The notes under the pieces are model-generated. The model worked only from the letters and a program-made list of their open reading frames with translations, had not been told where the DNA came from and ran no database searches. This document shows positions 1-20,842 of a stretch of DNA of 32,579 nt, in pieces (within the stretch, counting starts at the first letter, position 1; each line of letters begins with the position of its first letter). This DNA comes from an uncultured Bacteroidales bacterium. Its GTDB lineage: Bacteria > Bacteroidota > Bacteroidia > Bacteroidales > P3. The stretch spans positions 1 through 32,579 of the forward strand of contig CAMWIS010000003.1 of the NCBI GenBank assembly GCA_947174375.1. The letters are read 5' to 3'. The position numbers were made by a program, and so were the translations under genes.

Positions 1-509
1 GGAAAATCAGGTTGGCATAATGTCACGATGTAGCCCCCGGCTTTGTTGATCGTTGTATGGAAACGGGCGTGGTTGACCATGAGTATTTCCCGAATCTCTT
101 TTGGGGTGTTGAGGCCTTGTCCGGTCATTTTGCAATAGCTTTCTTTCCGGGTCCAGAGGATGGTAAAAGCCACGGCCGGGTCGGCACTCGTCAAAATGGA
201 TTTAAACTCTTCAGGTGCGGAAACATATTCCGCCATTTCCCGGTCGAAAGGGCGGACGGATTCCACGTCTATCCCGACGACGCTGTCGGAAAGGGCGCAA
301 ACCACCGCTTTATCGCAATGGCTGATGTTGAAATGAATATCCGGATGAGACCTGAAATAGGGTTTACCGAAAACACCGAATGAGATTTCTGGGATTTCCG
401 ATAGACCGTATTCCGTCTGTACCCCCTTTAAAAGGAGTTTACGGCCTATTTCCGACAGTTCCTTTTGAGTGCCGGTACCTTTTACCTCGTCAATCAGCGT
501 AGTCAACAT
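1..509 (-). CDS. 4'-phosphopantetheinyl transferase, Sfp-type (C-terminus truncated by window start)
   Basis: Not in the ORF track because its stop lies outside the window. Manual translation of the complement from the ATG at 509: MLTTLIDEVKGTGTQKELSEIGRKLLLKGVQTEYGLSEIPEISFGVFGKPYFRSHPDIHFNISHCDKAVVCALSDSVVGIDVESVRPFDREMAEYV...ILWTRKESYCKMTGQGL... Contains GKPYF, HFNISHC, VGIDVE and WTRKESYCKMTGQGL, hallmarks of Sfp-type PPTases. Confidence 0.9.
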   Translation of the reverse strand, partial: MLTTLIDEVKGTGTQKELSEIGRKLLLKGVQTEYGLSEIPEISFGVFGKPYFRSHPDIHFNISHCDKAVVCALSDSVVGIDVESVRPFDREMAEYVSAPEEFKSILTSADPAVAFTILWTRKESYCKMTGQGLNTPKEIREILMVNHARFHTTINKAGGYIVTLCQPDF

Positions 510-536: not shown

Positions 537-839
537 TCATTTAATGTCGAAGAGTGAGGAAAAACCGGTCATCGTAAATACTTTCCGGATATTGTCGTTC
601 AGGTTTTCAATGGTAAGCGTATTGCCATTCGGCTTACAGCTTTTGAGGAGAGAAAGGAAAAGCCGCAGGCCGCTTGATGAGATGTAGTTGAGGCCCGAGC
701 AGTCCAAGGATATCTTTTTCCCTTTTTCCGCCATAAGTGTCTGAAACGCTTTCTCTGTTTCCTGTGCGGCGGCCGTATCAAGGTCGCCTAAAAGTTGTAC
801 CGAAATATTTTCGGCCTCACAATGGATGGTAGTTTTCAT
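537..839 (-). CDS. STAS-domain protein, anti-sigma-factor antagonist (SpoIIAA/RsbV-like)
   Basis: 100 aa; VQLLGDLDTAAA...ISLDCSGLNYISSSGLRLFLSLL matches the STAS fold, with the Ser-containing SSSG motif at the usual phospho-acceptor position. Confidence 0.88.
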   Translation of the reverse strand: MKTTIHCEAENISVQLLGDLDTAAAQETEKAFQTLMAEKGKKISLDCSGLNYISSSGLRLFLSLLKSCKPNGNTLTIENLNDNIRKVFTMTGFSSLFDIK

Positions 840-870: not shown

Positions 871-3078
871 TTATCCCCGGCGTTTGGTTAAGGATAATAG
901 GTTGAAATTGCCTTCCCTGCGATAGGTCATGGTGTCTGTCAGTTGTCGGACCAGACACAAACCCAAGCCACCGATACGGCGTTCCTCAACAGACGATTCC
1001 GTATCGGCTTCTTTGATTTCCGTAGGGTCAAAAGCCTTGCCGGCATCCTTTATCTCAACCGACACTTCCTCCGGCCGAAACTTCAAGTTCACCCCTATTT
1101 CCCCTTTTTCATGCTTATCGTAAGCATGATGGATGACATTCGCCACCACTTCTTCTATGGCAAGCTTAAGTTCCGCGATAAATCCCTCTCCGAGGTGTTG
1201 TCCGGCACACGCCTCCTCTACAAATTGATTCAATTGCGGAATGTCAGCCACCTGATTTGTCAAAGTCATGCTTTTTTCGATGGTTTGGACCGACCTTTGG
1301 AATTTGAAGGCCAACATCGTGATATCATCGCTCTGTTCCGCCTTACCCACGAATGACTTTATGTGCCGCCCTATTCCCGCTATCAGGTCCCGCGGAGCGA
1401 CATCAGGATTCCCGGAACAAAGGGTTTTCAAGCCCGCCAACATCCGTTGCTCGCCAAACACTTCCTTATGGATGTCCATGGCCTCCGTCAGTCCGTCGGT
1501 ATAGAGCAGCATGACGGCCCTTTCCCCGAGTTGAGTTTTCTGCGGAACAAACTCAAAATCAGGGAATACGCCCAAAGGCAGATTGGGTATCACATCCAAT
1601 TGGGCCAAGCCTTGGGCATCCAAGACTAACGGCGCATCATGCCCTGCGTTGCAATAATCCAGCCTGCCGGTTTTCAGGTCAAGCACGCCCAAAAACAGGG
1701 TCACGAACATATCCCTCTCGTTAAACTCAATCAAGGTATTGTTCATGCCGGAAACGATGGCGCCGGGGGCAAACGTATTGGCGGCCAATGCACGGAAAAG
1801 CGAACGGGCCACCGCCATAAACAAAGAAGCCGGCACGCCTTTTCCGCTGACATCGCCTATACAGAAAACAAGACGGTGGTCTTTGATGAAATAATCATAG
1901 AGATCTCCGCCCACTTCCTTGGCCGGTTCCAGAACTGCCGCCACGTCGATTTTTTCCTCAGCCGCTTCTATGCTGTCGCCTTTCGGCAACATGCCCATCT
2001 GAATGGCGGCGGCAATCTGAAGTTCACTCCGGATTCTTTCCCTTTCGGCCGATACTTTTTCCAACTTCCGGATATTGCGTATCGCCCTCGCTATGATCAA
2101 CACCAATATCACCAAACCCGCCAGACTGAGCCACAGGATGGTCACCCGCATCTTATGGAAATCGCCAAAAATTTCCTTCTCGGAGTTTATGATGGCAATC
2201 GACCATCCCGTATGCTTGTCCACCGGCATAAAAAAGGCAAGGAATTTATTCCCTTTTTTATCCCTGATGACGGTTTGGCCGCTTTTGCCCGACAACATCC
2301 CCGCGTTGAGCGTCAGGAAATCCTCGTTTCCGTAAGCCTTCTCCATATCCGGTATGGTCTTCAACAAGAAATTCCGGTCAGGCACGGACATCAGCTGGCC
2401 CGTCTTGGAAAGCAGGATATGGTAACTTGACGGATAGGCATACTCCACCGCCAGTACGTCATCAAGCCAATCCAAAGATATATCGGCATCCAGCACCGCT
2501 ATGATTTTGCCATCCTTGTCATAAACCGGCTCCGAATAGGTGGTAAGCATCATTTTCGCACCATCGCTATCAAGATATGGATTGGTCCAACACCCCTTTC
2601 CGGTTGAAACCGGCAGACTGAAAAACTCACGCTTGAAGTAATCATGTTGTTCAGATCCGAGTTGCATGGTCTCGATCTTACCGGTGGAATCCCGGACGGC
2701 ATAAACCTCAAACCACTTGCCCCTTTCAGGATAGTAGTCTTCGATGAATGATATCGAACTTCCTGTGATTATGGCATTCATGCCCACTATTTTCGCGGCT
2801 ATCCCGTACATGGCGTCCGGTTGGTTCAATAATCCCGCCACATCATCGGTGTGATTGCATACGGCGGTCTCCACGACGTTCATGATGTTCTGAATGGTCA
2901 GGCTCTTTGCCGAAAGTTCGCTTTGCGCCCTAAGGCGTAAATCTTCATTTATCTCTTCATAGGCGTATTTGTACTGTACCAGATATATCACGACCAGCAA
3001 TACGGCCGCCACAACGATAAGGATAATACCGTTGGCGCCCAATATGTCATCGATCTTCTTAAGGGGATTCTTAGTCAT
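871..3078 (-). CDS. Membrane sensor: N-terminal TM, Cache-like extracytoplasmic domain, TM, SpoIIE-type PP2C phosphatase, C-terminal RsbW-like HATPase
   Basis: 735 aa. Two hydrophobic TM stretches bracket a Cache-like sensor (SYHILLSKTGQLMSVPDRNFLL...). PP2C metal motifs are intact (GGDLYDYF, GDVSGKGVPASLFMA, CNAGHDAP, YTDGLTEAMD, SDDITMLAF). HATPase motifs are intact (EEVVANVIHHAYD, IKDAGKAFDP, GGLGLCLVRQL). Confidence 0.88.
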   Translation of the reverse strand: MTKNPLKKIDDILGANGIILIVVAAVLLVVIYLVQYKYAYEEINEDLRLRAQSELSAKSLTIQNIMNVVETAVCNHTDDVAGLLNQPDAMYGIAAKIVGMNAIITGSSISFIEDYYPERGKWFEVYAVRDSTGKIETMQLGSEQHDYFKREFFSLPVSTGKGCWTNPYLDSDGAKMMLTTYSEPVYDKDGKIIAVLDADISLDWLDDVLAVEYAYPSSYHILLSKTGQLMSVPDRNFLLKTIPDMEKAYGNEDFLTLNAGMLSGKSGQTVIRDKKGNKFLAFFMPVDKHTGWSIAIINSEKEIFGDFHKMRVTILWLSLAGLVILVLIIARAIRNIRKLEKVSAERERIRSELQIAAAIQMGMLPKGDSIEAAEEKIDVAAVLEPAKEVGGDLYDYFIKDHRLVFCIGDVSGKGVPASLFMAVARSLFRALAANTFAPGAIVSGMNNTLIEFNERDMFVTLFLGVLDLKTGRLDYCNAGHDAPLVLDAQGLAQLDVIPNLPLGVFPDFEFVPQKTQLGERAVMLLYTDGLTEAMDIHKEVFGEQRMLAGLKTLCSGNPDVAPRDLIAGIGRHIKSFVGKAEQSDDITMLAFKFQRSVQTIEKSMTLTNQVADIPQLNQFVEEACAGQHLGEGFIAELKLAIEEVVANVIHHAYDKHEKGEIGVNLKFRPEEVSVEIKDAGKAFDPTEIKEADTESSVEERRIGGLGLCLVRQLTDTMTYRREGNFNLLSLTKRRG

Positions 3079-4441
3079 CTGTCTCGCCGGTATGAATGAT
3101 ATAATCCGGTATCTTACCGCCTTTTTTATTATGCAGCAGAGGTTTCAATGAATAAGTCACTTTTGCCTCAACGCATCCGTTTTCATGGAAATATTCCTCC
3201 AACCGCGCGCTCAGGCCGCCCAATACCTTTTCCGGATCTTCCCCCGGAAAGCAGATGCCTCTTATTTCAAGCGTATCGGATGAAATCTGTACCGTCTGGG
3301 ATTTCATCAAACCGGGCCATACCTCGGCTTTGGTTATGATAAGGACCATCGTGTACTTTTTTCCCGCTAAAGTGAACGATTGAAAAGAACGACCGTCTAT
3401 CTCCAAGGTCGGCAAAGCGGAACCGTCTTCCGGCGCGACAATCCGCACCCTGTCATCGACATGATAGCGGATGATAGGCTGCACAAAATTACTCAAGTCC
3501 GTAATCAGGATACCATCTGAAAATTGAGAGGCATCCTTGACGGGTTGAAGATGCTCATCCACAGGCTCCACAATCACCCAGTCCTCGTTAAGCCGCAGTT
3601 CCGGGCCGCCGTTGGCCATAGCGATTTCTCCCCCTTCGGTCATGCAGTAATTATTGATAACCGGACAACCGAAAGATTCAGACAATTCCCGGTAGGCTTT
3701 ATCGGGGAGCAACTCGGCGGAATTGGCGATAAGCTTAAGCCCTATATCCAACCGGCCTTCTTTCTGTTCTTTTGCCAGCGCGATGAGGGACGAAGCATAT
3801 CCGGTCAACACATCCGGCCTGAATGCGTTCAGTTTTTTCACGGTGCTGTCGAGGTCGTCAAGCACCGATATGGCGAGCATATTGTGGGCATGGTCAGGGA
3901 ATGCCGCCAGCGTCCTTAAATAGCCGTTATAACTTGAGGCCCCCGGCGAAGTGTGTATGACCGTGGCAATCCTATATTGGGAAGGATTCAAGAGGTTCGG
4001 GTCAAGGTCCCGCATAAGACGCCTGTTGACCAAAGCCCCATGAATCTTGTTGTGAAAATCATCGCGCACCATCAGCAGCGGTTCGCCTGTAGAACCGCTT
4101 GTTTTCAAAGCCGTATATTTGCCTGAAAGCAGAGAGGTGTCCTTCACGTCCCGGCCAAGATACGCGCCGACCTTTTCCTTATTCAGGCTCCGATCGGTCA
4201 ACCAGTCATCATAGTTAGCCTGCAAGGTTCTCTTCTCGGTAGGGGGAAGGTCCTTCAGCGTATAATGTTCCGGCAGATCCCTATAGAGTTCCTTGAAATA
4301 AGGGGAATTCCGCCGTGCGTACGCCACCAGCTCACGCAGTCTTTCATGCCTTATGTCCAGCCTTTCCCTTGCGGGCATACGCCCGGCTTCCTCTATCAGC
4401 CTTACGGCTTCGCTATATTCTATTGTCTTCATCGTATGCAC
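3071..4441 (-). CDS. PaaK-like (phenylacetate-CoA ligase family) AMP-forming adenylate enzyme
   Basis: 456 aa; LRELVAYARRNSPYFKELY, LKTSGSTGEPLLMVRDD, NNYCMTEGGEIAM and a C-terminal KGGKIPDYI segment are typical of PaaK/CapK-like adenylate enzymes. Overlaps the SpoIIE gene by 8 nt. Confidence 0.82.
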   Translation of the reverse strand: MHTMKTIEYSEAVRLIEEAGRMPARERLDIRHERLRELVAYARRNSPYFKELYRDLPEHYTLKDLPPTEKRTLQANYDDWLTDRSLNKEKVGAYLGRDVKDTSLLSGKYTALKTSGSTGEPLLMVRDDFHNKIHGALVNRRLMRDLDPNLLNPSQYRIATVIHTSPGASSYNGYLRTLAAFPDHAHNMLAISVLDDLDSTVKKLNAFRPDVLTGYASSLIALAKEQKEGRLDIGLKLIANSAELLPDKAYRELSESFGCPVINNYCMTEGGEIAMANGGPELRLNEDWVIVEPVDEHLQPVKDASQFSDGILITDLSNFVQPIIRYHVDDRVRIVAPEDGSALPTLEIDGRSFQSFTLAGKKYTMVLIITKAEVWPGLMKSQTVQISSDTLEIRGICFPGEDPEKVLGGLSARLEEYFHENGCVEAKVTYSLKPLLHNKKGGKIPDYIIHTGETDD

Positions 4442-4444
4442 CGG

Positions 4445-7400
4445 TTAAGCATCGAAGAACCCGAGGCCCTCGATTGCGGTTAAAAATCTGTCTATATAGT
4501 CCCAGGACGTGACGGACCACGAGAAACCAAGACGATAAAGCACCTGCATTGTATATACATTCTGCCGGAGAACATCGGATGATTTCCGCCCCTTCGCCAT
4601 ATTCTGGTACGCCAGGAGACTGGACAGCTGTTTGGCCTTTGCCGGATCTTCCTTGGCTTCATCGAGCGCCTTGGAGAAGTTTCCAAGTTCTACGAATTCA
4701 ACCCCTTCTCCTATATATTTCAATTCCCGCAATACATCCCCGAACAATATATTGTGGTTATTGTAAGGATGGAATACGACGCATTCTTTCGGCGTACATG
4801 AAAGCAGGACAATGGCCTTCGCCACCTCGTTGATGGGTGAGAATTCCACGGTAAGGTCCCTGGATTCATAGGGGCAACAGCCAAGCATATTATAGACCTT
4901 CAACCTGCCCATGAATGAGTTTGTCTGGAAATTAACCTGAAACTCGCCATCCGTGCTTCTGGGAGCGAGATTACCCACCCGCATGATTTTGGCGACAAGA
5001 CCTTTAGAGGCGACGGCTTCGAGTACCGCTCTTTCCGCAAGGAACTTCGAGTGGATATACTTATTGCCGAGGTATTGCCCCATGTAAAGACTTTCCTCAT
5101 TGAAAATCATGTCGCGCGCCGGGATACCGTTCACACTCAGGCCACGGGTACTTGCGGTGGAGACCTGAATCATCCTGGCGCCGGTAGCAAGGCAATATTC
5201 AATACAGTGTTCCGCTCCGCCTACGTTCACATCCTCAATTTCCGTCCCTTCTGCAAAATGCTTGACAATCGCGGCACAGTTTATCAAGGTATCGACTTTG
5301 ACCGCCGTATCGATTTCAGAGGTCACATCCCCCGGAATTACCTGCAATCTGTTGCCGAACAGACCGTCGAACGTATTTTCAAAATAATAGAACAGAAGGG
5401 TCTTCAGGCGTTCTTCGGCGCTCTTGGCATCCTTTGCCCTTATCAGGCAATAGATTTGCGCCGCATCGGAGTCAATCAGTTGTTTGAGGATATGGATGCC
5501 GAGATAGCCGGTGGGGCCGGTAAGCAGGACTTTGCCGAGACCCAACGGTTCTCCGAGCCGGAATGCCTCAAGGGTGTTTTGTTTAAGCAGGGCGTTTATG
5601 GCCGAATAGTCATAATCCGTCACCTCATCTTTCTCAACGGCGTCGTCGGAGATACCGAGGATAAAGTTGGCGAGTTTTCTCGGCGTCGGGTTCGCGAACA
5701 CATCCCCGTATGCCACACGATAGCCCAACTTGTCCGTTTCGATAATCACCCTTGTCGTTACGAGCGACGTGCCTCCCAACTCATAGAAACTGTCATTCGC
5801 CCCGACCTTGTCCAATTTGAGAATCTTTCCGAATATGCCGGCGATATTCCGTTCCGTTTCATTGGCAGGCGCCTCATATTCTCCGGAAAGGGCGACCTCC
5901 GGAGCGGGCAGCGCCTTGACATCGGTCTTGCCGTTCGGGGTCAACGGGAACTTATCCAGTTGCAGGTATGCGGTGGGCACCATATACTTGGTAAGGTTCT
6001 TTCCAAGTTCCGCTTTCAGTTCGGATATGTCAATCTTACGGTTGGCCGTGAAATAAGCCGCCAGATGGTCTTCCCCTTTAATCCCGACAATCTTGACCAC
6101 AACGTTGCCGATGCCTTCAACAGCCGCCAAAGCCGCCTCCACTTCCCCGAGTTCAATCCGGAGACCGCGCAGCTTTATCTGATTGTCGGTCCGGCCAAGG
6201 ATTTCCACATCGCCGTCCTCGGTCCATCGGGCGTAGTCCCCCGATTTATAGACGTGCATTCCCTTGTAGTCTATAAATCTTTCAGCCGTCATCTCGGGAA
6301 GGTTGTTATAGCCTGAGGCCACTCCCAAACCGCCGATATAGAGTTCTCCCACGATACGGGCGGGCAGTTCGTTTCCGTCCCTGTCAACCACAAATTCCGT
6401 TACGTTCAAGAGGGGCTTTCCCACACTGACTCGGTTGGTTTGCGTCATGTCCTTGCAGTTGGAGGAAACCGTAATCTCCGTCGGGCCGTAGGTATTGAAT
6501 ATCCGTGCTTCCGGAGCGGCGGCCCTCAATTTGTCAAGCAGGCCATCGGCATATTTCTCGCCACCGCACATAATGACCTTACATTGCCCGATAGCCTCTG
6601 CAAAAGCGGGCAACTCCATGAATTGCAGCATTCTTGAAGGCGTGGTGTTGAAAGCGTCCGCTTTCGTTTCCTTAAACAGCCTTGAAAGCGTAATCGGATT
6701 GGTGGTCTGTTCTTCATCGGCAAACACAAGCGTCAACCCGTTGTTCAAGGCGGCCCCGATTTCTTTCAGGCTCATGTCGAAAGAAATGGTCGTGATGGAA
6801 AGCAATGTGTTTGCGGTTGTCGCCAAAGCATGTATATGGGTATTGGCCGGATGGTCAAGCAGGTAATTGGCGATACTTTCATGGCGAAGCATCACCCCTT
6901 TGGGCTTGCCGGTCGAGCCGGAAGTATATATTAGATACGCAAGATCATTCGGGGTGATTTCCAACGCGGGGCGCTCGGGATTTCCTTCCAACAGCGTCTC
7001 AACATCGATGGCATTGGCGAAATCCTTCAGCCGGTCCTTGGTCGTGATGACATAGGCGGCCCCGCTGTCATTCAAGATATGCTGTATTCTCTCTACCGGA
7101 TACTCGGGATCGCAAGGGATATACGCACTTCCGGCTTTCATCACCCCGTACATGGACAGAATCACTTTCGCGGTTCTGGGAAGCAGCAACGCGACCTTGC
7201 TTCTCGGACGCACGCCCAGACCGATCAAGTTGTTGGCAATCCGGTTGGCCGTGGCGTCAAATTCCCGGTACGTATATTCGCCATCGCAAGCGATAAGGGC
7301 CTTCCGGTCCGGTGTCTTTCGGGCGAAATACTCCACCGCTTCCTGAAAATAATGAAACTTAGGCGCCGCCACCTCAACCGTGCGGAATTTTTCCAATTCC

Positions 7401-10400
7401 TTCTCCCGGGCCTCATCGATAAGATTTACCGCGTTAATCTTCCCGGATGCGTTCGAGAGCATCTTATCCGTGACAATCACGATACTGCGGGCAAACCCCT
7501 CCATTAAACTCCGGCTGTAAAGGGCATCATTGTAGTACACCACGACCGCCGGTTTTCCGTCGGCCAGTTCAATATGCACCGAAACCTTGAATTTGGCCAT
7601 GTCCTGCTCCAGGCTTTCCATCCCTTTCAGTTGCGGGAAGCCGTTACCGCCGATGACACCGAGTTGGTATTCATATACGATTTCCGGCCGGTACCCGTAG
7701 TCGGCGGAAATGCGGGCGAACGGGTATTTTTCGTGGTCGAGAACGCCATTGAATATGCCGGCGCTCCGCTTGATGAACGCTTCGATGGATTCGTCTTCCA
7801 CCTTGACGGCCAAAGGCAGCGTGTTGACGAACATACCGAAGGTTTCTCCGGTGCGCACGTCGCTTCGCCCGCTACTGATGGTGGAAAGATATACATTGGC
7901 GTCGTTGACATATCTTGACACGGTATAGAACGTGGATGCCAACATCACCGCGGCCTGTGTCACGCCAAGTTTCCTGGCGAATTCATCCACCCGGTCCGCA
8001 TTGAAATGGGAAGCGGCCGTTCTCAGTTTGCCATCCGTTTCCTTCCCTTTCAGGTCGTTTGGAATTTCACTTACATTTTCCAAATCCGCCAGGAGCCGGG
8101 CATAATATTGTCCGTTGGCCTCATAGGTTTCCGATTTCTCAAACTCCTTTTCATCCGCCACATATTGGAAATAGGTATAGCTTTCAGGCGAAAGCTTTTC
8201 ACCCGCCAAAACCTGTTGCAGTTGGCGGAGGAAAATATCCAGCGACGTACCGTCAAACACCAGATGATGGAAATCGGCAAGCAGACAGATATCATCGGGC
8301 GTTTCCACCACTTCCATCCGATATAGCGGCCCGTTGGATAGACGGAACGGTTTGACAAATGAATTTTTATACGTATCCAGTTGTTCCTGCGTCATTTGCG
8401 ACACCTTCACTTCCGGAACGTGGCCGTCCATCAAGACCTGCATCACGCCCGCCTCGGTGTTTTTAAAACAGGAAGCAAGGGTTGGATGGGCCGAAACCAC
8501 ATCTTTCACCGCGCCGGCCAGTTTTTCAGAAGCTATCGCCTTGCTAAACCGGAACATGGCCGGAATATTATAGGTAACGTCGGCGGGGCGTTTCATACAT
8601 TCGAAATAGACACCGGTCTGCGGGAATGAGAGCGGCGACGACTTGACGTCCTTCCCCTCGGCCTTTGCCCCCGTATCCCCGGCTTTTGCGCCGGACAGCA
8701 GCTGACCGAGGATGAGGTTCTCGACCGTCTCGACGCTCCCGCCGTTTAACAGATGCTTGGACGGAATTTCCACGCCGAATCTTTTATATAGCTGGGAAGC
8801 GAACTTGATGCTAAGGATGGAAGTGAGGCCGTAATGCGTAAAAGGCGAAGCGATGCCCAATCCGTCGGTACCCAATGTCTTTTCTGCAATCGAACATATT
8901 TCCTTTTCAAGAATATTTAAAGGACGGTGCGTCTCGGCTTCATCGGTTTCAACCTTAAATTCAGGCTCCGGCAAAGCCCTCTTGTTGACCTTCTGGTTTT
9001 GATTCAGCGGGATACGTTCAATCTGCATCGTAACGGCCGGCACCATATAAGGCGGTTTCCTATCGCGGATGAAATCATTGAGGGCGTTTATATCCACCGG
9101 ATTATCGCTCACCACATAGGCGGCGATGTATTTCCCGCCGGAAGGATGGTCGAATGCCACGACGGTCGCATTCCTGATGCCTTCGAATTCCCGGATCACC
9201 GTCTCCACCTCGCTTAGCTCTATCCTGAAACCGCGGATCTTGACCTGACCGTCACTCCGCCCGACGAAATCAATGTTTCCATCGGCACGGTAACGGACCA
9301 TGTCGCCCGTCCGGTACGCTTTACCATAATCCCCGCCGGCAAATGGATTCCGGATGAAGACCTCGGCCGTCTTTTCAGGACGGTTCAGATACCCTTCCGC
9401 CACATGGGGGCCGGCTATCCACAATTCTCCGACGGCGCCTACCGGCACCCGCTTGCCTTCATCATTCACGATATATCCCTTAATGTTGTCGAGGATCTTT
9501 CCGATCGGAATATCGGTTTCATCTTTTTGCAACTGATAAATCGATGATAATATAGTGCCTTCCGTAGGCCCGTAGGCGTTATAGGTCTTATAGCTGGACG
9601 GAACCGGGAAAGAGATGAGTTTCTCGCCGCCCATGCAGAGGTATCGCAGAGAAGTTTCCTCGATATCACTCGCGAACTGCCGGCCGACCTGCGTGGTCAT
9701 GAACAGGTGGGACACCTTGTTTGCCATCAAATATGCGTTCAGCCGCTCCATATCGAGGCGGATGTCCTCCGGCACGATGCAGACGGCCGCCCCCCGGCAT
9801 ATAGTGGGGTACATGTCCATCATATTGGCGTCAAACCCATAGGAGGCATATGCGCCCACGCAATCTCCGGGGCGGAGGTCAAAGTATCTTACATACCAGT
9901 CGATAAAGCATACCAGATTGGCATGGTCAAGTTTAACGCCCTTAGGCACGCCGGTAGAACCGCTGGTGTATAGGAGGGTAAAGAGCGAGGACGGCTTCAC
10001 GCTATGCCGTACCGCCCGTTTCCGCTCGCTCTTTTCTATCTCGGAAATGAAAAGCACGTCCCCGTTATATTCATCAAGATATCCGCGCAGTTCTTCCGTG
10101 GTGATAAGAAGTTTCGCTCCGGAATCCTTTACCATGAAGTTAAGACGGTCTTTCGGATAGGTATGATCCAAAGGTTGATACGCACAACCGGTCTTTGAGG
10201 TACCCACGGAGGCCAACACCATCCATTCGCTTCTGGGAATCAGGATACTGACCACATCCCCCTCGCCGAGACCGCGGCTTTCTATTTCCGCCGCAACGTT
10301 ATCGGTAATCCGGGCCGCCTGCCTGTAAGTGTATTTCCGGTCTTCATATATAACCGCTATATTGTCAGGATAAGCTTGCGCCGCGCTTTCAAACAGACTG

Positions 10401-13366
10401 ACTACCGTCTGCGTATGGTCGTATGCCGCGTCCGTATTGTTGAAACCATCCAGTTGTGCAAGCTGTCCCGGCGTGGTTATGTCCACTTCGCCCATCAAGT
10501 CACAGCAAGTCATTGACTTGAGGATGGCGGCATAACTCTCGGACATTCCCTTTATAAAGCCTTCGGAATACCGGTTAGCCATATATTCCACATGGAGTAC
10601 GAGTTTCCCCTCCTTGATGAAAACCTGGAAATCGAGAGGCATCCCCGTGGCGTTCCCGCCGAGGGCGATTTCTTCCGCCATACCGCCGAGCAGACTTTCC
10701 TTTGCAAGGTAATCGCCTTGATAGGCAAACAAGATATCGCTGTTTATCCCGCTGGATGCCGCCAACTCCGCAAATGAGTATATATCATTCTGCATCGCCC
10801 CCAATATTTGATCCTGCATCTCTTTCAGATATTGGGTCGTACCGGTATCGGACGTCCACTTGCAATATACCGGCAACGTCTTCACCATCATGTCGATGGT
10901 GCGCTCCTCCTTTGAACCGGTTCGGCCGTTGTATATCGTGGCGAAAAGGGCCTCGTTGGCATTGACGAACGTTCCCAACAGTTTCCCGAAAGCGGCCGTG
11001 TTCAATACGTTGGCCGATATGCCGGTCTTTTCGCAGAACCGGTTCATGGCTTCGACACTCAAATCCAATGGATGATCCCATGAGGCGAACGCCACTTCAT
11101 CCGCATGTCTGTCCCGAACCGGCAGACTGTCGATTTCAAGACCGCCGAAAATCCTTTCATACCATGCTTTTGACTCGTTGTAAACCTCGGTTTTCCTGAC
11201 TTCCGCTTCTTCCAAGGCGACATCAAAACCCGTCCATTCTTCCGATACGATTTCCTCATCTCGATATGCGCCATTGAGGTCTTCAAGGAAGATCAGCATC
11301 GAAGTACCGTCATAGATAATATGATGGAAATCCATAAAAAGATAATGACGCTCCTCTGTTTCGAAAATCCGGATTCTGAAGAGCGGATCTTCCGTTAGCC
11401 TGAACGGTTGAATCAGTTCGGGTACCAGTCTGTCGAACGCTTCTTGTGACAGTTTCTCAATCGTCTGTCTATAAGCATAATCCTGAGGAACCATCATCGG
11501 ATTGCCATCGGCGTCTTCCTTTATCCTAAGTTTGACAAACGGATGCGCCTCGATGACTTTTTCCAGCGCTTTTGCAAGCTTGGCCGGATCAATGGACTTG
11601 TCGAGTTTAAAAAGCTGGGGGATATTGTAAACGGCCTTGCCCTGAGCGGCCATGCATTCGGCGAATATGCCCGATTGCGTACGGCTCAAAGGAACGGGCG
11701 TCTTGGCATCATGTTTCGTTGCGCTTGAAGCATCCTTCCGGAGGGCGGCCGCCAGATTTTTCGGCGTCCTTGCTTTATAGATAAGTTTAGAGGTGAGTTC
11801 CAGACTCTTGCACAATTGTTGCAATTTCATCACCTTGATACTGTCTCCGCCAAGGAGGAAGAAATCATCGTCGATGCCCACCTTTTCCAAATTAAAAACG
11901 CGGGCGAAAGCATCGCACAAGGCCTGCTCCGTGGCATTTCGGGGCGCGACGTAAGACACCTGCCATTCTTCGGCGGAGGGGGCCTCCAAAATCTTCCGGT
12001 TCACTTTCCCGTTGGGCAACAAGGGGAAAGCCTCCATCCTGACGAGATAAAGCGGCACCATATATGACGGGAGCCGCTTTAGTAAATCTTCCCTCAGTTT
12101 TTCCGAAGTCAAATCCGATTCGGAAGACGGGATATAATAGCCACAGATGAACTGGCTGCCGTTGTCAGCATCGAAACCTTTCACGATGGCATCTTTTACA
12201 CCGGCATTCTTTTTCATGGCGGACTCCACTTCGCCCGGCTCGACGCGCTGGCCGTTGATTTTGAGCATCCAATCCTTACGGTTGACGTATTGAATGGCAC
12301 CGTCGGGAAGGACTTTCATGATATCGCCGGTATGTAGCCACCCGTTTTCATACAGCTTGGCCGTTTTATCGGGATCCTTATAATATTCCTTGGCGAAATG
12401 CCCTTTCGCGATTAATTCCCCTTCCTCGCCTTGCGCCACTTCGTTGCCTTCGTTATCGACAATCTTAAACTCAAAACCGGATTCACGGTCGGGATAGCCA
12501 ATCGGCGTGGCGTCATAAGGACGGTCCACCTTAAACGGCGTTATACCGCCCACCATTTCGCTCATACCGAAGATATTGTAGAGCGTGTAACCGTCGCGGC
12601 TCGACTGGCCGGAAACCTTCTCGCTACCTGTATATACCACTTTGAGGGAGTCGGAATGATTACGGAAATTCCGGAGCATGGAAGGGCTGATGAAGGTGTG
12701 GGTAATCCCGTTTTCCGCAACATAATCCGCCATCTTCACAACGTCAAACCGCACCTCGTCGTCATAGAGATGGAGCTGACCGCCTCCCTTCAACACCTTG
12801 AAGTTTATCGTCACCCCCGCGATGAAATAGAGCGGTGCGGTGGCGCCCCATTTCTGCGTCGGATCTACCGGCGCCTTGATGCAATACTCGTTTCCGAAGA
12901 GAAGGCTCTCGAACGTATGGAGGATACCTTTGGGTTCTCCGGTCGAGCCACTGGTGTAAATCAGAAGGGCGTTCCTATCCAAACCACACGCTTCGTCACC
13001 GAGATACCTTCCCTCCGTGGCGGATAATTTCCGGAATAAATCTTCATCCAGCACGACGGAGGCGTCACTATGCCTTCTAATGTATGCAATCCGTTCCGGA
13101 GGATAGGATGTGCCCATAGGAACCGGTGCATGCCCCGCCATCCAAATGGCCATCATCGATGCGATGTATTCCAACGAAACCGGCATAAGGATCGGAATAA
13201 ACGAATTGTCGGGCAAATCCATTTCATCGAGTGAATAGGCCACCCGGCTCACCAAATCATATAACTCGCTATAAGTCGTTTTCCGGCCGTGCTTGTCCAC
13301 TATGGCAATCTCGTCGCCATACTTCCGGCAACTATCCCAAAATGCTTGAAGGAATTGGTTGGTCAT
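4445..13366 (-). CDS. Trimodular nonribosomal peptide synthetase with terminal thioester reductase (A-T-C-A-T-C-A-T-R)
   Basis: 2973 aa. Three adenylation domains (LLIYTSGSTGEPKG; TLLYTSGSTGVPKG; YLIYTSGSTGKPKG), three carrier domains (FFLLGGDSIKV; FTHYGLTSILS; FYELGGTSLVT), two condensation domains with intact HHxxxDG (HHIIYDGTS; HHLVFDGTS), and a C-terminal NAD(P)H reductase (VLLTGPTGYLGIHILKQL, catalytic YxxxK in KYIHSKFLAE). No epimerisation or TE domain seen. Confidence 0.95.
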   Translation of the reverse strand: MTNQFLQAFWDSCRKYGDEIAIVDKHGRKTTYSELYDLVSRVAYSLDEMDLPDNSFIPILMPVSLEYIASMMAIWMAGHAPVPMGTSYPPERIAYIRRHSDASVVLDEDLFRKLSATEGRYLGDEACGLDRNALLIYTSGSTGEPKGILHTFESLLFGNEYCIKAPVDPTQKWGATAPLYFIAGVTINFKVLKGGGQLHLYDDEVRFDVVKMADYVAENGITHTFISPSMLRNFRNHSDSLKVVYTGSEKVSGQSSRDGYTLYNIFGMSEMVGGITPFKVDRPYDATPIGYPDRESGFEFKIVDNEGNEVAQGEEGELIAKGHFAKEYYKDPDKTAKLYENGWLHTGDIMKVLPDGAIQYVNRKDWMLKINGQRVEPGEVESAMKKNAGVKDAIVKGFDADNGSQFICGYYIPSSESDLTSEKLREDLLKRLPSYMVPLYLVRMEAFPLLPNGKVNRKILEAPSAEEWQVSYVAPRNATEQALCDAFARVFNLEKVGIDDDFFLLGGDSIKVMKLQQLCKSLELTSKLIYKARTPKNLAAALRKDASSATKHDAKTPVPLSRTQSGIFAECMAAQGKAVYNIPQLFKLDKSIDPAKLAKALEKVIEAHPFVKLRIKEDADGNPMMVPQDYAYRQTIEKLSQEAFDRLVPELIQPFRLTEDPLFRIRIFETEERHYLFMDFHHIIYDGTSMLIFLEDLNGAYRDEEIVSEEWTGFDVALEEAEVRKTEVYNESKAWYERIFGGLEIDSLPVRDRHADEVAFASWDHPLDLSVEAMNRFCEKTGISANVLNTAAFGKLLGTFVNANEALFATIYNGRTGSKEERTIDMMVKTLPVYCKWTSDTGTTQYLKEMQDQILGAMQNDIYSFAELAASSGINSDILFAYQGDYLAKESLLGGMAEEIALGGNATGMPLDFQVFIKEGKLVLHVEYMANRYSEGFIKGMSESYAAILKSMTCCDLMGEVDITTPGQLAQLDGFNNTDAAYDHTQTVVSLFESAAQAYPDNIAVIYEDRKYTYRQAARITDNVAAEIESRGLGEGDVVSILIPRSEWMVLASVGTSKTGCAYQPLDHTYPKDRLNFMVKDSGAKLLITTEELRGYLDEYNGDVLFISEIEKSERKRAVRHSVKPSSLFTLLYTSGSTGVPKGVKLDHANLVCFIDWYVRYFDLRPGDCVGAYASYGFDANMMDMYPTICRGAAVCIVPEDIRLDMERLNAYLMANKVSHLFMTTQVGRQFASDIEETSLRYLCMGGEKLISFPVPSSYKTYNAYGPTEGTILSSIYQLQKDETDIPIGKILDNIKGYIVNDEGKRVPVGAVGELWIAGPHVAEGYLNRPEKTAEVFIRNPFAGGDYGKAYRTGDMVRYRADGNIDFVGRSDGQVKIRGFRIELSEVETVIREFEGIRNATVVAFDHPSGGKYIAAYVVSDNPVDINALNDFIRDRKPPYMVPAVTMQIERIPLNQNQKVNKRALPEPEFKVETDEAETHRPLNILEKEICSIAEKTLGTDGLGIASPFTHYGLTSILSIKFASQLYKRFGVEIPSKHLLNGGSVETVENLILGQLLSGAKAGDTGAKAEGKDVKSSPLSFPQTGVYFECMKRPADVTYNIPAMFRFSKAIASEKLAGAVKDVVSAHPTLASCFKNTEAGVMQVLMDGHVPEVKVSQMTQEQLDTYKNSFVKPFRLSNGPLYRMEVVETPDDICLLADFHHLVFDGTSLDIFLRQLQQVLAGEKLSPESYTYFQYVADEKEFEKSETYEANGQYYARLLADLENVSEIPNDLKGKETDGKLRTAASHFNADRVDEFARKLGVTQAAVMLASTFYTVSRYVNDANVYLSTISSGRSDVRTGETFGMFVNTLPLAVKVEDESIEAFIKRSAGIFNGVLDHEKYPFARISADYGYRPEIVYEYQLGVIGGNGFPQLKGMESLEQDMAKFKVSVHIELADGKPAVVVYYNDALYSRSLMEGFARSIVIVTDKMLSNASGKINAVNLIDEAREKELEKFRTVEVAAPKFHYFQEAVEYFARKTPDRKALIACDGEYTYREFDATANRIANNLIGLGVRPRSKVALLLPRTAKVILSMYGVMKAGSAYIPCDPEYPVERIQHILNDSGAAYVITTKDRLKDFANAIDVETLLEGNPERPALEITPNDLAYLIYTSGSTGKPKGVMLRHESIANYLLDHPANTHIHALATTANTLLSITTISFDMSLKEIGAALNNGLTLVFADEEQTTNPITLSRLFKETKADAFNTTPSRMLQFMELPAFAEAIGQCKVIMCGGEKYADGLLDKLRAAAPEARIFNTYGPTEITVSSNCKDMTQTNRVSVGKPLLNVTEFVVDRDGNELPARIVGELYIGGLGVASGYNNLPEMTAERFIDYKGMHVYKSGDYARWTEDGDVEILGRTDNQIKLRGLRIELGEVEAALAAVEGIGNVVVKIVGIKGEDHLAAYFTANRKIDISELKAELGKNLTKYMVPTAYLQLDKFPLTPNGKTDVKALPAPEVALSGEYEAPANETERNIAGIFGKILKLDKVGANDSFYELGGTSLVTTRVIIETDKLGYRVAYGDVFANPTPRKLANFILGISDDAVEKDEVTDYDYSAINALLKQNTLEAFRLGEPLGLGKVLLTGPTGYLGIHILKQLIDSDAAQIYCLIRAKDAKSAEERLKTLLFYYFENTFDGLFGNRLQVIPGDVTSEIDTAVKVDTLINCAAIVKHFAEGTEIEDVNVGGAEHCIEYCLATGARMIQVSTASTRGLSVNGIPARDMIFNEESLYMGQYLGNKYIHSKFLAERAVLEAVASKGLVAKIMRVGNLAPRSTDGEFQVNFQTNSFMGRLKVYNMLGCCPYESRDLTVEFSPINEVAKAIVLLSCTPKECVVFHPYNNHNILFGDVLRELKYIGEGVEFVELGNFSKALDEAKEDPAKAKQLSSLLAYQNMAKGRKSSDVLRQNVYTMQVLYRLGFSWSVTSWDYIDRFLTAIEGLGFFDA

Positions 13367-13377
13367 ATTGCGTAGAA

Positions 13378-15147
13378 TTAATTATTTCTTGAAAAACTGA
13401 GCATCACCATATTTTGGTCATACATGTATTTATAGTTGACATGGTCGTATAGGGCGTTGACCATCTTCAAACCTATCTTCCCGTTTGGATTGTCGGAGAC
13501 TATTTTTCTGTCCCCGCCGGTCATCACGGGATTGAACGGACGCCCGTCATCCTTGAGCAAGACCTGCACGTCCCGTTCCGTCACGCTTATATGCAGGTCG
13601 AAATAATGCTTCTCGCGCCTCTTTTCAACCGCATATTTTACGATATTCCGCATCAGTTCCTCACAATCAAGCCTGACCCTGTATGCGGTCATGGCGTCAA
13701 TCCCCAGCCTCCCGAGAAAGTCCTTGATTTCCTTATCCGCGTCCGTCACGCTTTCGGGGGTCATTTTTACGGATAAGACAAGTACATCATCGTTTTCCTC
13801 CCGGGGAATGAGGGTGATGAACCTATATCCTTCCTCCCGGCTTTGGATGACACCGGTATAAAGAACCAGGCCCGACAACAGGGCGACCGAGGAAGCCGCA
13901 AATCCCCACCACATCACATCCGCGCTTATGAATGTGAACCCCCAGACAAATCCGACCATAAGCAGCAATTGCGCGATGCTTAAAAAGAGACTCAGCCGCG
14001 TCCTGCCTAAAATCTGATATGTGGATCTCAATATGGCGACAACGGCATAAGGGATAAGCATAAGAGAAAAAGCCCTCAACGCATATGGCAGCATACGTAC
14101 GGGATTGTCCGGTCTGTTGCCGAATAATTCTCCGAAAAACCGGGGACATATCAATATCACCAACGTTATCGCCGCCAACGCGCCCACTGTATATAATAAA
14201 CTTTTCCTATTTAGGATGGCAAGTCCCTCCATATCCCTTTCCCCTGCCAAAACCCCGCCAATGGAAAAGATGCTGGAGCCGATGCCGGTCAAAACCATCT
14301 GCATGATCATGAAAAGTTGCAGGCATACCGCCCAGCAGTATATACCATCGGCACCTTGCGCGGAGAGCACAATATAATTGATTAACAATATACTGCCACC
14401 AAGCAGCAATGTATTGATGCTCATGGGGAGGCCCTGGGCCACACTTTGCCGCACATAAAGCATCATCTTGCCCCAATCCGCATGCCACTTCAAGGAATTA
14501 TGAGGTTTCCTGAAATGTCTGAGACAGATGGTGATGGCTAGAATATAATTCAATCCCGTAGCCCATGCCGAACCGGCGATCCCCATCCCGAGCCACTTGA
14601 TAAAAACGATGTCAAGAATAAGGTTGAGGCAACTTCCCGCTATCACCGCCCCCATCACTATTCTTGGATTTCCATCGGTCTTGACGAAATTTTCAATCAC
14701 GCCCCCCAACATCATGAAAGGCACGGATACGCACATCACTTTCAGATAGCTGAGCGCCAAAAGATAGATTTGTTCATTGCCGCCGGTAACCGCCCCTGCG
14801 ATTTCCGAGCTGAATATAAAGGTAACTATCGCCAAAGCCACCCCGCTTCCGACGGAACCGAGAACCGCAGCGGTAAAAACGCCATTGGCGGTATCGTCAT
14901 CCCTTCTCCCGATGGCCTTGGCCGCCACTATACTCGCGCCTATCCCGAATAAAATCATCAGGCAACTGAACACCGTCAATACCGGCGTCATCAGGTTGAT
15001 GGCGGAAATGGCATCCGGTCCAATAAGATGGCTTACCACGATGGCATCGGTGGTTGTGGCAAGCTGAGCGGAAACGGCCGCCAATATGGAGCCCCACATA
15101 AAATGCTTCAAAGCCTGAGTCACCAGATATGGATTGCGATTTTCCAT
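13378..15147 (-). CDS. MATE-family multidrug/metabolite efflux transporter fused to a C-terminal RsbW-like HATPase domain
   Basis: 589 aa. The N-terminal ~430 aa are polytopic and MATE-like (TTTDAIVVSHLIGPDAISAINLMTPV...). The C-terminal ~140 aa carry N-box CEELMRNIVKYA, G1 LKDDGRPFNP and G2 GKIGLKMVNAL of serine-kinase HATPase_c domains. Confidence 0.87.
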   Translation of the reverse strand: MENRNPYLVTQALKHFMWGSILAAVSAQLATTTDAIVVSHLIGPDAISAINLMTPVLTVFSCLMILFGIGASIVAAKAIGRRDDDTANGVFTAAVLGSVGSGVALAIVTFIFSSEIAGAVTGGNEQIYLLALSYLKVMCVSVPFMMLGGVIENFVKTDGNPRIVMGAVIAGSCLNLILDIVFIKWLGMGIAGSAWATGLNYILAITICLRHFRKPHNSLKWHADWGKMMLYVRQSVAQGLPMSINTLLLGGSILLINYIVLSAQGADGIYCWAVCLQLFMIMQMVLTGIGSSIFSIGGVLAGERDMEGLAILNRKSLLYTVGALAAITLVILICPRFFGELFGNRPDNPVRMLPYALRAFSLMLIPYAVVAILRSTYQILGRTRLSLFLSIAQLLLMVGFVWGFTFISADVMWWGFAASSVALLSGLVLYTGVIQSREEGYRFITLIPREENDDVLVLSVKMTPESVTDADKEIKDFLGRLGIDAMTAYRVRLDCEELMRNIVKYAVEKRREKHYFDLHISVTERDVQVLLKDDGRPFNPVMTGGDRKIVSDNPNGKIGLKMVNALYDHVNYKYMYDQNMVMLSFSRNN

Positions 15148-15177: not shown

Positions 15178-17023
<1,846 letters not shown>

Positions 17024-17048
17024 TTAAGTGTTTCTAATTTAAGGTTTT

Positions 17049-18869
17049 CTATTCTTCTATCTTGAAGGCCTGATAGGCCCGGCCACCACCCGCGAAGCCC
17101 GCGTTCTTGTAGAACTCCACGAACGTGAGACGCAACGGGTGTACGACCGATCCCAACGCGCAGAGCGCGATGTTGAGCCCATGGCCGAACAACAAGATCA
17201 AAATCATAATCAACTGCTTGAGCACCGGGATGGAACCGCTCATCTGCAAGGCCAAATCGTTGAACACGCCGCCGAGGATACCGCCCGTAAGCCCCAACGC
17301 GAACAGACGGATATAGGACAGCAAATCGCCGACCAAGCCCGTGGCCGTATTGTAACTCGCCCACAGCCCCGAACCGAAGTTCATCCAAATCGGCTTGCCG
17401 GGACTGTTGTAGAAGAACGCGCCGCACGCGCCGATACCCACGAGGGCATAGCAGGCGTAACGCACGGCGACCGGCAGCGTCATGGCCGTCATCTGTTCGG
17501 CCAACAGCGGAATCGCGAACACGAGGATGAGCCACCAGCCCAACGCGCCCACGGCATATTTAAAGCCTTTCTGACGCGCGATGTTGAGCACGTGGACGAA
17601 CATCCCGAACAGAATCTGTATGCCGCCCAACGCGAGCGAGAGCATCATGAGCTGGTCCTGACCGAGGATATAGGCGTGGAACCGTTGCAGGGACGGCACA
17701 TTGACGAGCGACACGCCGAAGAACGTGCCCGACAGCATACCGAACACGACGGCCGCCGCGCCCAAATAGCAGACGAGCGACAGTATCGGCCTGAAGTCCG
17801 GCTTCACCTTGGCGCGGAGCAGGAAGCCCGCCAGGACGAACAGCAGGCCGTAGCCGGCGTCGCCCATACAGAAGCCGAAGAACATCATGAAGAAAGGCGC
17901 GAACAAGGGCGTCAAATCCAATTCCCGATAGCCGGGCAACGAGAACAGTTTGGTAATCGGCTCGAAAAGACGCGCATAGGCGTTGTTTTTCAACAGCACC
18001 GGCACGTCCGCCTGCGCTTCCTCGGGCAAGGTCTTGGCGGCCTGTTGGCGGAAGAACACGCCCTCGCCCTCTAAGAAAGCCTCGAACTCGGCCTGGTCTT
18101 TGGCCGGCAGGTAACCGGCCACGATGCGCAGACTCCCATCGGCCTCGGCGGGCATATCGGTGCGCGCCACCCTATAGGCCAAGCGGTTCCAACAGTGCTT
18201 GCGCGCCTGTCCGAAGTCGGCCATGCGGTCGGCCGCGTAGGCCACGCGGGCCTCGTCTTCGGCCTTTTGCTGCCGCGCCGCCTGCAACTGCACCGCCCAC
18301 TGCGCCGGCGGCTGGGTCGGCGCGGCCTCTTCCTGCACGCGCCAGTCGGCGGGCAACGTATCCCAATAGACAAAATAGACGCGGCCGCCGGTTTTAGCCA
18401 CCAAGGCCACCGGATAGGCTTCGGGGGCTTCGTCCAACGTCCACATTTTGGCCGGCATACTGCCGAAACGCAACGTCAGCCCGGCCTGCGCCAAGCCTTC
18501 CAACACCGCCGGGTCGTACACGCCCCATACCGCCTCTTTGTCGGCGGCCTGCCGCAAGACCGCTTCCTGGTCCGCCGACTTGCGCGCGCGTTCCAAAGCG
18601 TCTTCGGTCCATTCGATACGGGCGGTCTCGTCCGCCGGGAAATCCGCCGCGGCGGCCCGCACGTCCGGATGCAGACGCCGCCAGTCGTTGAGCGCGCGCT
18701 CCAAACGCTCCGCCCGAACGCCCAAACGGTAGTCCTCTTCCTGCGTGCCCTTTACGGCCAAGTCTCCCAACGACAGGTCGAGCAACCCTTTGGCCTGCAA
18801 GGCTTTCAAGAACGGTTCGAATTCCTGATGGAACAACAGGATTTCGTATTTCAGCATCGGTTCTATCAT
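17049..18869 (-). CDS. ntpI: V/A-type ATPase subunit I (a-like)
   Basis: 606 aa; soluble N-terminal half, then polytopic C-terminus with FFGFCMGDAGYGLLF and NTATGLVGDLLSYIRLFALGLTGGILGGVFNDLA. Confidence 0.93.
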   Translation of the reverse strand: MIEPMLKYEILLFHQEFEPFLKALQAKGLLDLSLGDLAVKGTQEEDYRLGVRAERLERALNDWRRLHPDVRAAAADFPADETARIEWTEDALERARKSADQEAVLRQAADKEAVWGVYDPAVLEGLAQAGLTLRFGSMPAKMWTLDEAPEAYPVALVAKTGGRVYFVYWDTLPADWRVQEEAAPTQPPAQWAVQLQAARQQKAEDEARVAYAADRMADFGQARKHCWNRLAYRVARTDMPAEADGSLRIVAGYLPAKDQAEFEAFLEGEGVFFRQQAAKTLPEEAQADVPVLLKNNAYARLFEPITKLFSLPGYRELDLTPLFAPFFMMFFGFCMGDAGYGLLFVLAGFLLRAKVKPDFRPILSLVCYLGAAAVVFGMLSGTFFGVSLVNVPSLQRFHAYILGQDQLMMLSLALGGIQILFGMFVHVLNIARQKGFKYAVGALGWWLILVFAIPLLAEQMTAMTLPVAVRYACYALVGIGACGAFFYNSPGKPIWMNFGSGLWASYNTATGLVGDLLSYIRLFALGLTGGILGGVFNDLALQMSGSIPVLKQLIMILILLFGHGLNIALCALGSVVHPLRLTFVEFYKNAGFAGGGRAYQAFKIEE

Positions 18870-19468
18870 AACGCCTCCTCCTGTTGCATATGACGGCTCT
18901 TGACGATTTTCTGCGAGGACTTCGACAGGTTCTCCTCGTCTTCGATAAAGCGTTTTATCTTTTGTATCGCCTCTTTATAGCCGGGAATCTGCACCTTTTC
19001 GTACAGATTCACTTTTTGGGTCGTTTTCTTGCGCGCCTTTTCAAGATACTGCATCTTGTAGCGGTACACCTCGCTCTGCAGGCCCACGGACGCCAATTCC
19101 TTGAGCGTCTCTATGCCCTGCGCCGTCCAGGCCGGTTCGGCAAACGAAAGGAACGGCTTTTCCTTGTAGCGGATTTCCTTCAGCTCCGGCACCTTGACGC
19201 CGGCCACCTTGCCCATCCTGAGATCGATGGCCTCCACCTCCACGCTGCGGGGATCCAGTTCCGGGAACAGCGCGGAAAGCCCTTCCATGCGCTGCATCGC
19301 CTCCTCCAACGCCTTATCCAGACGTTCGGCCTCGGCCTTGGCCTTCTTGACCTCCACCCGCAACGCGGACTCCTTGCTCTTGATGGTCGGCAAGGCCCGT
19401 TCCCGCATTTTCAGCCCCTTGCCCAACTCGTTGAGCGAAGTCTTGTTATATTGAAATTTAATCGGCAT
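18866..19468 (-). CDS. ntpD: V/A-type ATPase subunit D
   Basis: 200 aa; MPIKFQYNKTSLNELGKGLKMRERALPTIKSKESALR..., long coiled coil; correct operon position. Confidence 0.92.
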   Translation of the reverse strand: MPIKFQYNKTSLNELGKGLKMRERALPTIKSKESALRVEVKKAKAEAERLDKALEEAMQRMEGLSALFPELDPRSVEVEAIDLRMGKVAGVKVPELKEIRYKEKPFLSFAEPAWTAQGIETLKELASVGLQSEVYRYKMQYLEKARKKTTQKVNLYEKVQIPGYKEAIQKIKRFIEDEENLSKSSQKIVKSRHMQQEEAL

Positions 19469-19508
19469 CGGTTTTCACACTTAATTTTCAAAACCCGTCG
19501 GTACGGCC

Positions 19509-20834
19509 TCAGGCGTTCTTCGGCCAGTATTTGTCCATCAGGTTCTGTTTGATCGCCACCTCGGCCGGCTTGAAATAGTGCGCGAACATCTGCCAAACGC
19601 GATCCAGCATCTCCGTCGTGTCGATGTTGACGTCGATGGCCAGAATCTGCGCCGAATAGTCCTTGGCGAACGACAGCGTCCGTTCGTCGTAGTCGCTCAA
19701 ATCGAAACCGTTTTCCAGCTTGGTGCGCGCGTTGGCCGCATCGGCGTACAGACGGACGGCCGCATTCATGACCTGCGGATGGTCTTCGCGCGTCTGCTTG
19801 CCGATAACCAGCTGTTTCAGACGCGAGAGCGAACGGAACGGGTCGATGATGACCTTGTTCACGTCGCTGTCGTTACGCAGGAACAACTGCCCTTCCGTAA
19901 TATACCCCGTATTGTCGGGGATGGCGTGCGTGATGTCGCCGCCGCTCAACGTCGTCACCGCGATAATCGTGATGGAGCCGCCGTCGGGCAACTGCACGGC
20001 CTTTTCGTAAATCTTGGCCAGGTCGGAATAGAGCGAACCCGGCATACTGTCTTTGGACGGAATCTGATCCATACGGTTGGAGACGATGCTCAACGCGTCG
20101 GCATACAGCGTCATGTCGGTCAGCAACACGAGCACCTTCTCGTTCTTATCCACGGCGAAATATTCGGCCGCCGTCAGCGCCATGTCGGGAATCAACAACC
20201 GTTCGACGGGCGGCTGTTCGGTCGTGTTCACGAAGCAAATCATCTTGTCGAGCACGCCGGCGTTCTCGAACGACTGCTTGAAGAACAGGTAGTCGTCGTT
20301 CGTCAGCCCCATGCCGCCCAAAATGATTTTATCCACCTTGGCCCGCAAGGCCACCATACACATCACCTGGTTGTAGGGTTCGTTCGGGTCGGCGAAGAAC
20401 GGAATCTTCTGACCCGACACGAGCGTATTGTTCAAGTCGATACCGGCCATGCCCGTGGGAATCAGCTCCGACGGCTGCTTGCGGCGGAACGGGTTGACCG
20501 ACGGCCCGCCGATCTCGCGTTCCTCGCCCTCCGGTTCGGCGCCCCCGTCTATCGGTTGGCCGTAAGCGTTGAAAAACCGCCCCACCAAATCGTCGCCCAC
20601 CTTGAGCGAAGGCACCTTGCCCAAGAAAACGACTTCGGCATTCGTCGGCAGGCCCTCCGTACCGGAGAACACCTGCAACGTGATGCGGTCGCCCTTGATT
20701 TTGACCACCTGCGCCAAACGGTCGCCCACCATGGCCAATTCATCGTTGGAAACCTGCGTCGCCCGCACATCGACCGTCGCCTTGGTCACGGCCTCCAATC
20801 GCGTATATACTTTCTGAAACGCTGTCTTTTCCAT
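19509..20834 (-). CDS. ntpB: V/A-type ATPase subunit B
   Basis: 441 aa; VFLGKVPSLKVGDDLVGRFFNAYGQPIDGG, LIPTGMAGIDLNNTLVSGQKIPFFADPNEPYN, MDQIPSKDSMPGSLYSDLAKIYEKA. Confidence 0.96.
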   Translation of the reverse strand: MEKTAFQKVYTRLEAVTKATVDVRATQVSNDELAMVGDRLAQVVKIKGDRITLQVFSGTEGLPTNAEVVFLGKVPSLKVGDDLVGRFFNAYGQPIDGGAEPEGEEREIGGPSVNPFRRKQPSELIPTGMAGIDLNNTLVSGQKIPFFADPNEPYNQVMCMVALRAKVDKIILGGMGLTNDDYLFFKQSFENAGVLDKMICFVNTTEQPPVERLLIPDMALTAAEYFAVDKNEKVLVLLTDMTLYADALSIVSNRMDQIPSKDSMPGSLYSDLAKIYEKAVQLPDGGSITIIAVTTLSGGDITHAIPDNTGYITEGQLFLRNDSDVNKVIIDPFRSLSRLKQLVIGKQTREDHPQVMNAAVRLYADAANARTKLENGFDLSDYDERTLSFAKDYSAQILAIDVNIDTTEMLDRVWQMFAHYFKPAEVAIKQNLMDKYWPKNA

Positions 20835-20842
20835 AATCTCGC

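Follow-up and report, generated by a model that had tools for sequence, protein, structure and literature searches.

The locus studied here raises the question of why a MATE transporter should carry an RsbW-like domain at its C-terminus, and what that domain does there. We analysed a window, the whole stretch of 32,579 nucleotides from an uncultured Bacteroidales bacterium, in which a first-pass annotation had read a MATE exporter and an RsbW-like domain from a single reading frame. Both parts were recovered by Pfam (MatE and HATPase_c_2) and in the AlphaFold fold, and the coding strand proved to be the minus strand, the plus strand across 13378-15147 being broken by stops.

13378..15147, minus strand: MATE-HATPase_c_2 fusion protein of 589 aa with an ATG start; MATE part about 10-437, linker about 437-460, HATPase 462-584
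13396..13764, minus strand: HATPase_c_2 domain of the MATE fusion (PF13581 match in its own genome and residue census)

MatE matched in two stretches covering both halves of the transporter (E 2.2e-28) and HATPase_c_2 matched residues 462-584 (E 1.2e-13; 51.6 bits, cut-off 27.4), while the TIGR00797 match (E 8e-36) stayed under the cut-off of that family. Asp34 in helix 1 of the MATE part is invariant in 15 sequences and, judged from the alignment, fits an ion-coupling residue. The AlphaFold model of the whole fusion shows MATE helices and, after them, a small domain of mixed alpha/beta structure, and PfMATE, VcmN, Aq_128 and DinF-BH were among its best PDB matches, so that MatE over both halves and the MATE fold together identify a MATE transporter. 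The isolated C-terminal domain, modelled with a pLDDT of 79 and a disordered lid, gave 24 significant PDB fold matches, including SpoIIAB, RsbW, UsfX, the RsbU-RsbW protein Rv1364c and SiaB; the top complexes were SpoIIAB-SpoIIAA, RsbV-RsbW, UsfX-RsfB, Rv1364c RsbU-RsbW and SiaB-SiaC, and the remaining matches were to Leptospira LvrC, which carries a response-regulator annotation. The PF13581 score and these matches identify a Bergerat fold of the RsbW/SpoIIAB kind. The PDB relatives came from fold comparison only; phmmer with the domain gave no match among PDB sequences. A negative control, hhalign of the domain against STAS, gave no match. Both termini of MATE proteins are cytoplasmic, and therefore the fused domain should be cytoplasmic as well. 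We class the protein among the MATE transporters, with an RsbW-type domain attached, a new combination of known parts.

The peptides first read as N, G1 and G2 boxes of anti-sigma kinases (CEELMRNIVKYA, LKDDGRPFNP and GKIGLKMVNAL) are all present, but GKIGLKMVNAL falls short of a true G2 box, with Lys in place of the first glycine of G-x-G. In the window protein the N-box residues are E497 and N501, G1 spans D533-G535, the degenerate G2 is K557-I558-G559, and a C-terminal strand reads Y572-x-Y574-x-Y576-x-Q578-N579. Homologues conserve E497, N501, KDDGRPFNP (sole exception an R-to-C change in L041), G559-L560 and Y572/Y574/Y576/Q578-N579.

The fusion gene lies in a string of genes that all run on the minus strand, in the 5' to 3' order Wzy_C protein, MATE-HATPase, non-ribosomal peptide synthetase (NRPS), F390/CapK-like enzyme, dCache-SpoIIE-HATPase, STAS and phosphopantetheinyl transferase (PPTase). 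The STAS reading frame pointed out earlier at 537-839 belongs to this same string, 12.5 kb from the MATE gene.

16581-15178, minus strand: Wzy_C protein, first of the gene string
4445..13366, minus strand: NRPS of 2973 aa, A-T-C-A-T-C-A-T-Red by Pfam domain content
3071..4441, minus strand: F390 synthetase/CapK-like adenylate-forming enzyme of 456 aa (profile matches)
871..3078, minus strand: membrane protein of 735 aa with dCache sensor, SpoIIE (PP2C-type) phosphatase and canonical HATPase_c_2 kinase domain (Pfam)
537..839, minus strand: free STAS protein of 100 aa with an IxSSGLR phosphoacceptor motif (Pfam)
1..509, minus strand: 4'-phosphopantetheinyl transferase for NRPS activation (ACPS Pfam match at window 57-383)

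From the Wzy_C gene through STAS the intergenic distances are 30, 11, 3, -8 and 31 bases, the dCache-SpoIIE-HATPase gene overlapping the preceding F390/CapK-like gene by 8 bases; the PPTase frame extends to the window edge, its start being undefined. A promoter and terminator scan gave scores not clearly above those of shuffled sequences. The NRPS contains three AMP-binding domains, two condensation domains and three carriers and ends in an NAD_binding_4 reductase (Pfam), and its best NCBIfam match was the aureusimine NRPS AusA, below the cut-off of the AusA model; the expected product would be a reductively released tripeptide. The string holds a complete partner-switching set, namely a SpoIIE phosphatase, a HATPase kinase and a STAS protein with a phosphoserine motif, whose S55, S56 and G57 are invariant in nine sequences. 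Outside the string, the window contains V/A-type ATPase genes (subunits K, I, B and A by Pfam; 16565-22612, minus strand) upstream of wzy and the MATE gene, a T9SS plug domain (25589-26893, plus strand), an APH and RapZ C-terminal combination (26901-28463, plus strand) and an ArsP_2-type 10TM putative metal exporter (30621-31778, minus strand).

We consider it close to evenly balanced that the fusion exports, through its MATE part, the product of the NRPS encoded in the same operon and is under post-translational control by the partner-switching module. The dCache-SpoIIE-HATPase membrane protein would sense an external or periplasmic signal and set the phosphorylation of STAS, its SpoIIE domain dephosphorylating and its canonical HATPase domain phosphorylating the protein; these steps follow from domain content and family knowledge. 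At its C-terminus the MATE protein would carry an RsbW/SpoIIAB fold specialised as a dock for STAS, with kinase activity that is probably weak or lost. One form of STAS, most likely the unphosphorylated one, would bind this dock and thereby permit or block export of the NRPS product; the binding, the gating of transport, the sign of the effect and the NRPS product as cargo are all inferred. In its broader form the proposal is that the direct client of a phosphorylation-driven partner switch can be a secondary transporter, with STAS binding an RsbW-fold dock on a MATE protein and gating non-ribosomal peptide export, neither a sigma factor nor transcription being involved; this seems quite possible and is put forward tentatively.

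The genome census speaks to the link between the fused domain and STAS. The genome of the window (92% complete, 187 contigs) encodes only two HATPase_c_2 domains that score above the cut-off in the profile search, one fused to SpoIIE and one to MATE; these are the two candidate partners between which STAS could switch. The same pair together with one free STAS was found in each of four genomes (G000, which is the window's own, G266, G687 and G696), and no free-standing RsbW was found in these at the HATPase_c_2 cut-off. Together with the shared operon, this makes the earlier suggestion of a regulated effector of partner switching the best reading of the fusion. In G696 the MATE-fused gene and the SpoIIE-STAS genes lie on different contigs, and therefore the association is more than operon proximity. 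Furthermore, every genome with an intact N-box in the MATE-fused domain has a free STAS (30/30, hand count). The other STAS match in the window's genome falls in a frame of 582 aa, a size that suggests a SulP-like protein. Away from the operon the genome encodes one more SpoIIE-like phosphatase, of divergent sequence (G000:C37:9940-10587; 51.5 bits, 421-aa frame), which could also act on STAS.

The domain might instead serve dimerisation, stability, nucleotide sensing or the binding of, e.g., the NRPS, and STAS would then target something else. We regard this as unlikely: the nearest folds are STAS-binding kinases, four genomes offer no HATPase_c_2 beyond the MATE-fused and SpoIIE-fused ones, and intact N-boxes occur only alongside free STAS. 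What speaks for it comes from two clades. The first is a sister clade of 13 loci whose NRPS-linked MATEs lack the domain; in 10 of them SpoIIE-HATPase and STAS stand beside the NRPS, upstream of it. A reading in which these loci also lack STAS and SpoIIE was rejected, since the far side of the NRPS holds them in most. STAS may therefore have another target. In G1020, G782 and G839, HATPase_c_2 is found only on SpoIIE, and thus STAS there has a target or role other than a MATE-borne HATPase, one that might be common to the system of the window; the STAS proteins of L038 (with domain) and L182 (without) are 86% alike. These cases weigh against STAS docking on the MATE protein, as does the 12.5 kb that separates STAS from the MATE gene in the window. 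An outer-membrane barrel, absent from the window, is encoded in the five domain-less clusters read in detail, and the one that was scanned is Alginate_exp. More generally, a barrel is frequent in SpoIIE-STAS-NRPS-MATE clusters (L173:11206-12507, Alginate_exp by Pfam; L174:13771-15090; L180:448-1815; L184:18158-19486; L037:5685-7103) and may be an outer-membrane exit.

The second clade lacks STAS. In six orphan MATE-fused proteins (L095, L097-L101) both the N-box Asn and the lid are gone, and the C-terminal YKYMYxQN strand has outlasted the ATP site, as a role apart from STAS would allow. No free STAS was found in genomes G925, G898, G1040, G985, G799 and G938, and the five genomes of this clade that were checked gave no HATPase_c_2 matches; this joint loss counts in favour of the docking proposal. 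The six proteins form one clade and count as a single evolutionary event, and G928, G859, G953 and G1065 have lost the N-box Asn in spite of a free STAS; a dependence of the domain on STAS is therefore consistent with the data and not proven by them. We set aside a statistical comparison of N-box decay with the loss of STAS because a single clade offers too few independent pairs.

Docking by a pseudokinase also has to be weighed against catalysis, and the first-pass annotation had considered a kinase that responds to the transport state. We aligned 43 MATE-fused domains, i.e. 16 near homologues including the window protein and 27 sequences of the wider family, with 19 free and 18 SpoIIE-fused HATPases as controls from genomes that also hold MATE-fused ones. 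E497 and N501 align with E46 and N50 of SpoIIAB, and 16/16 near homologues retain this N-box pair together with the G1 Asp, as would be expected if the domain were an active STAS kinase reporting transport state or product level to the switch; in the wider family the N-box Asn is absent from 13 of the 27. The first glycine of the G2 G-x-G, on the other hand, occurs in 0/16 near homologues against 36/37 controls, the position being Lys in the window protein and His in most relatives, and the ATP lid varies between 11 and 23 residues against 20-22 in the controls. The canonical kinases of related genomes keep both features, and SpoIIE is already fused to a complete kinase domain. An active kinase on the MATE protein is accordingly quite improbable, and the idea of a kinase responding to transport is weakened. 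Arg at the position of SpoIIAB R105, which contacts the gamma-phosphate (PMC10120452), was present in 0/16 near homologues and in 37/37 controls. We dropped this loss as proof of a dead kinase, given that B. subtilis RsbW, a known kinase, lacks Arg at the equivalent position in our alignment; the loss is therefore not decisive alone. From the residues, nucleotide binding may persist in the window protein and efficient kinase activity is unlikely, the intact canonical kinase domain being carried by the SpoIIE protein. Since the G2 feature was tested and found missing, the domain is not filed as an RsbW kinase; the best reading is a domain for STAS docking that is probably a pseudokinase.

RsbW and SpoIIAB, whose fold the domain shares, are both anti-sigma factors, and the fusion could accordingly be a membrane-anchored anti-sigma factor whose HATPase sequesters a sigma factor and whose MATE part senses cargo. 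No sigma factor gene was noticed in the operon, and RsbW-type anti-sigma action is familiar from SigB/SigF-type sigma factors, which, to our knowledge, have no described members in Bacteroidota; this explanation is highly improbable. An assembly or gene-calling artefact, conceivable in a fragmented source MAG of 187 contigs, is refuted by about 40 homologues in other Bacteroidales genomes, each a single open frame with conserved linker position and residues.

Among these independently assembled genomes, G266 carries the fusion at 59% and L033 at 61% identity, and full-length homologues of 45-61% identity were found on 14 contigs of Prevotellaceae, Muribaculaceae and other Bacteroidales. In a 399-genome sample of the Prevotella-type family the fusion occurs in about 26 and a closely related MATE that lacks the domain, about 445 aa long, in about 23 (hand count), and in a 396-genome sample of the phylum it occurs only in the window's own genome. 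The MATE tree shows the fusion as widespread and the domain-less NRPS-linked MATEs as one nested clade (support 100/99), so that one loss is the simplest history. Viral contigs yielded no relatives, and plasmids just ordinary MATEs matching 55-65% of the query. NRPS, STAS and SpoIIE genes adjoin near homologues in many contigs. STAS lies at most about 35 bases upstream of MATE-HATPase (0-33 bases from match to match) in L035, L038, L039, L040, L106 and L114, where L035/L038/L039/L040, L106 and L114 are well separated branches of the tree; in the window, G266 and L033 it lies towards the other end of the gene string.

The system can be compared with several described ones. With SpoIIAB and RsbW (PF13581) the domain shares the predicted fold, the N-box Glu/Asn, the G1 Asp and an operon with STAS and SpoIIE genes; in contrast to them, it sits on a 12-helix transporter, lacks the first G2 glycine and the R105-equivalent, has a variable lid and was seen with no sigma factor. 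SypE-SypA, SiaABCD and BtrUVW (PMC8256260, PMC10120452, PMC8457831) likewise combine a SpoIIE/PP2C phosphatase, a HATPase kinase and a free STAS with a phosphoserine motif, and their non-sigma or unknown output, beyond a simple sigma factor, would be matched by the system of the window, although the output proposed here is a transporter bearing its own HATPase dock. Direct action on a target has precedents: SiaC, a STAS or STAS-like protein, acts directly on the enzyme SiaD (PMC8457831), and the STAS protein MlaB acts directly on the transporter ATPase MlaF (PMC7367683). MlaB binds a transporter on its cytoplasmic side, for which a counterpart is proposed here; unlike the window's phosphorylatable STAS and secondary transporter, however, it is a subunit of an ABC system. 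ClbM of the colibactin pathway has the MATE fold and is encoded with an NRPS, but its structure (4z3n, 431 residues) is MATE only, without a HATPase domain. In a collection of open-access papers, which leaves out most subscription ones, we found no description of a MATE-RsbW fusion.

Several STAS partner-switch systems of Gram-negative bacteria have unknown targets and outputs (PMC8256260). Where a genome's sole HATPase_c_2 client is part of an exporter, the case is minimal, and the gene alone can show the output. Should the proposal be true, transporters would be added to sigma factors and a diguanylate cyclase on the list of partner-switch clients, and an external signal would directly control natural-product export in rumen and gut Bacteroidales.

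Further forms of the gene were observed. A second, distant type of Bacteroidales MATE (L051:7513-9429, L052:8477-10393) has a C-terminal extension of about 165 aa, invisible to Pfam, that aligns with the MATE-fused HATPase domain (hhalign E 6.5e-6, probability 85%) and misses the N-box Asn; it is possibly a second MATE-HATPase lineage without a STAS operon. At L047:9902-10162, between STAS and NRPS, the MATE-HATPase gene has shrunk to 86 codons with its N-terminus fused in frame to the HATPase end, by internal deletion or misassembly. Finally, a 108-aa HATPase remnant at L046:927-1253, in the same MAG as L042, closely resembles the MATE-fused domain.
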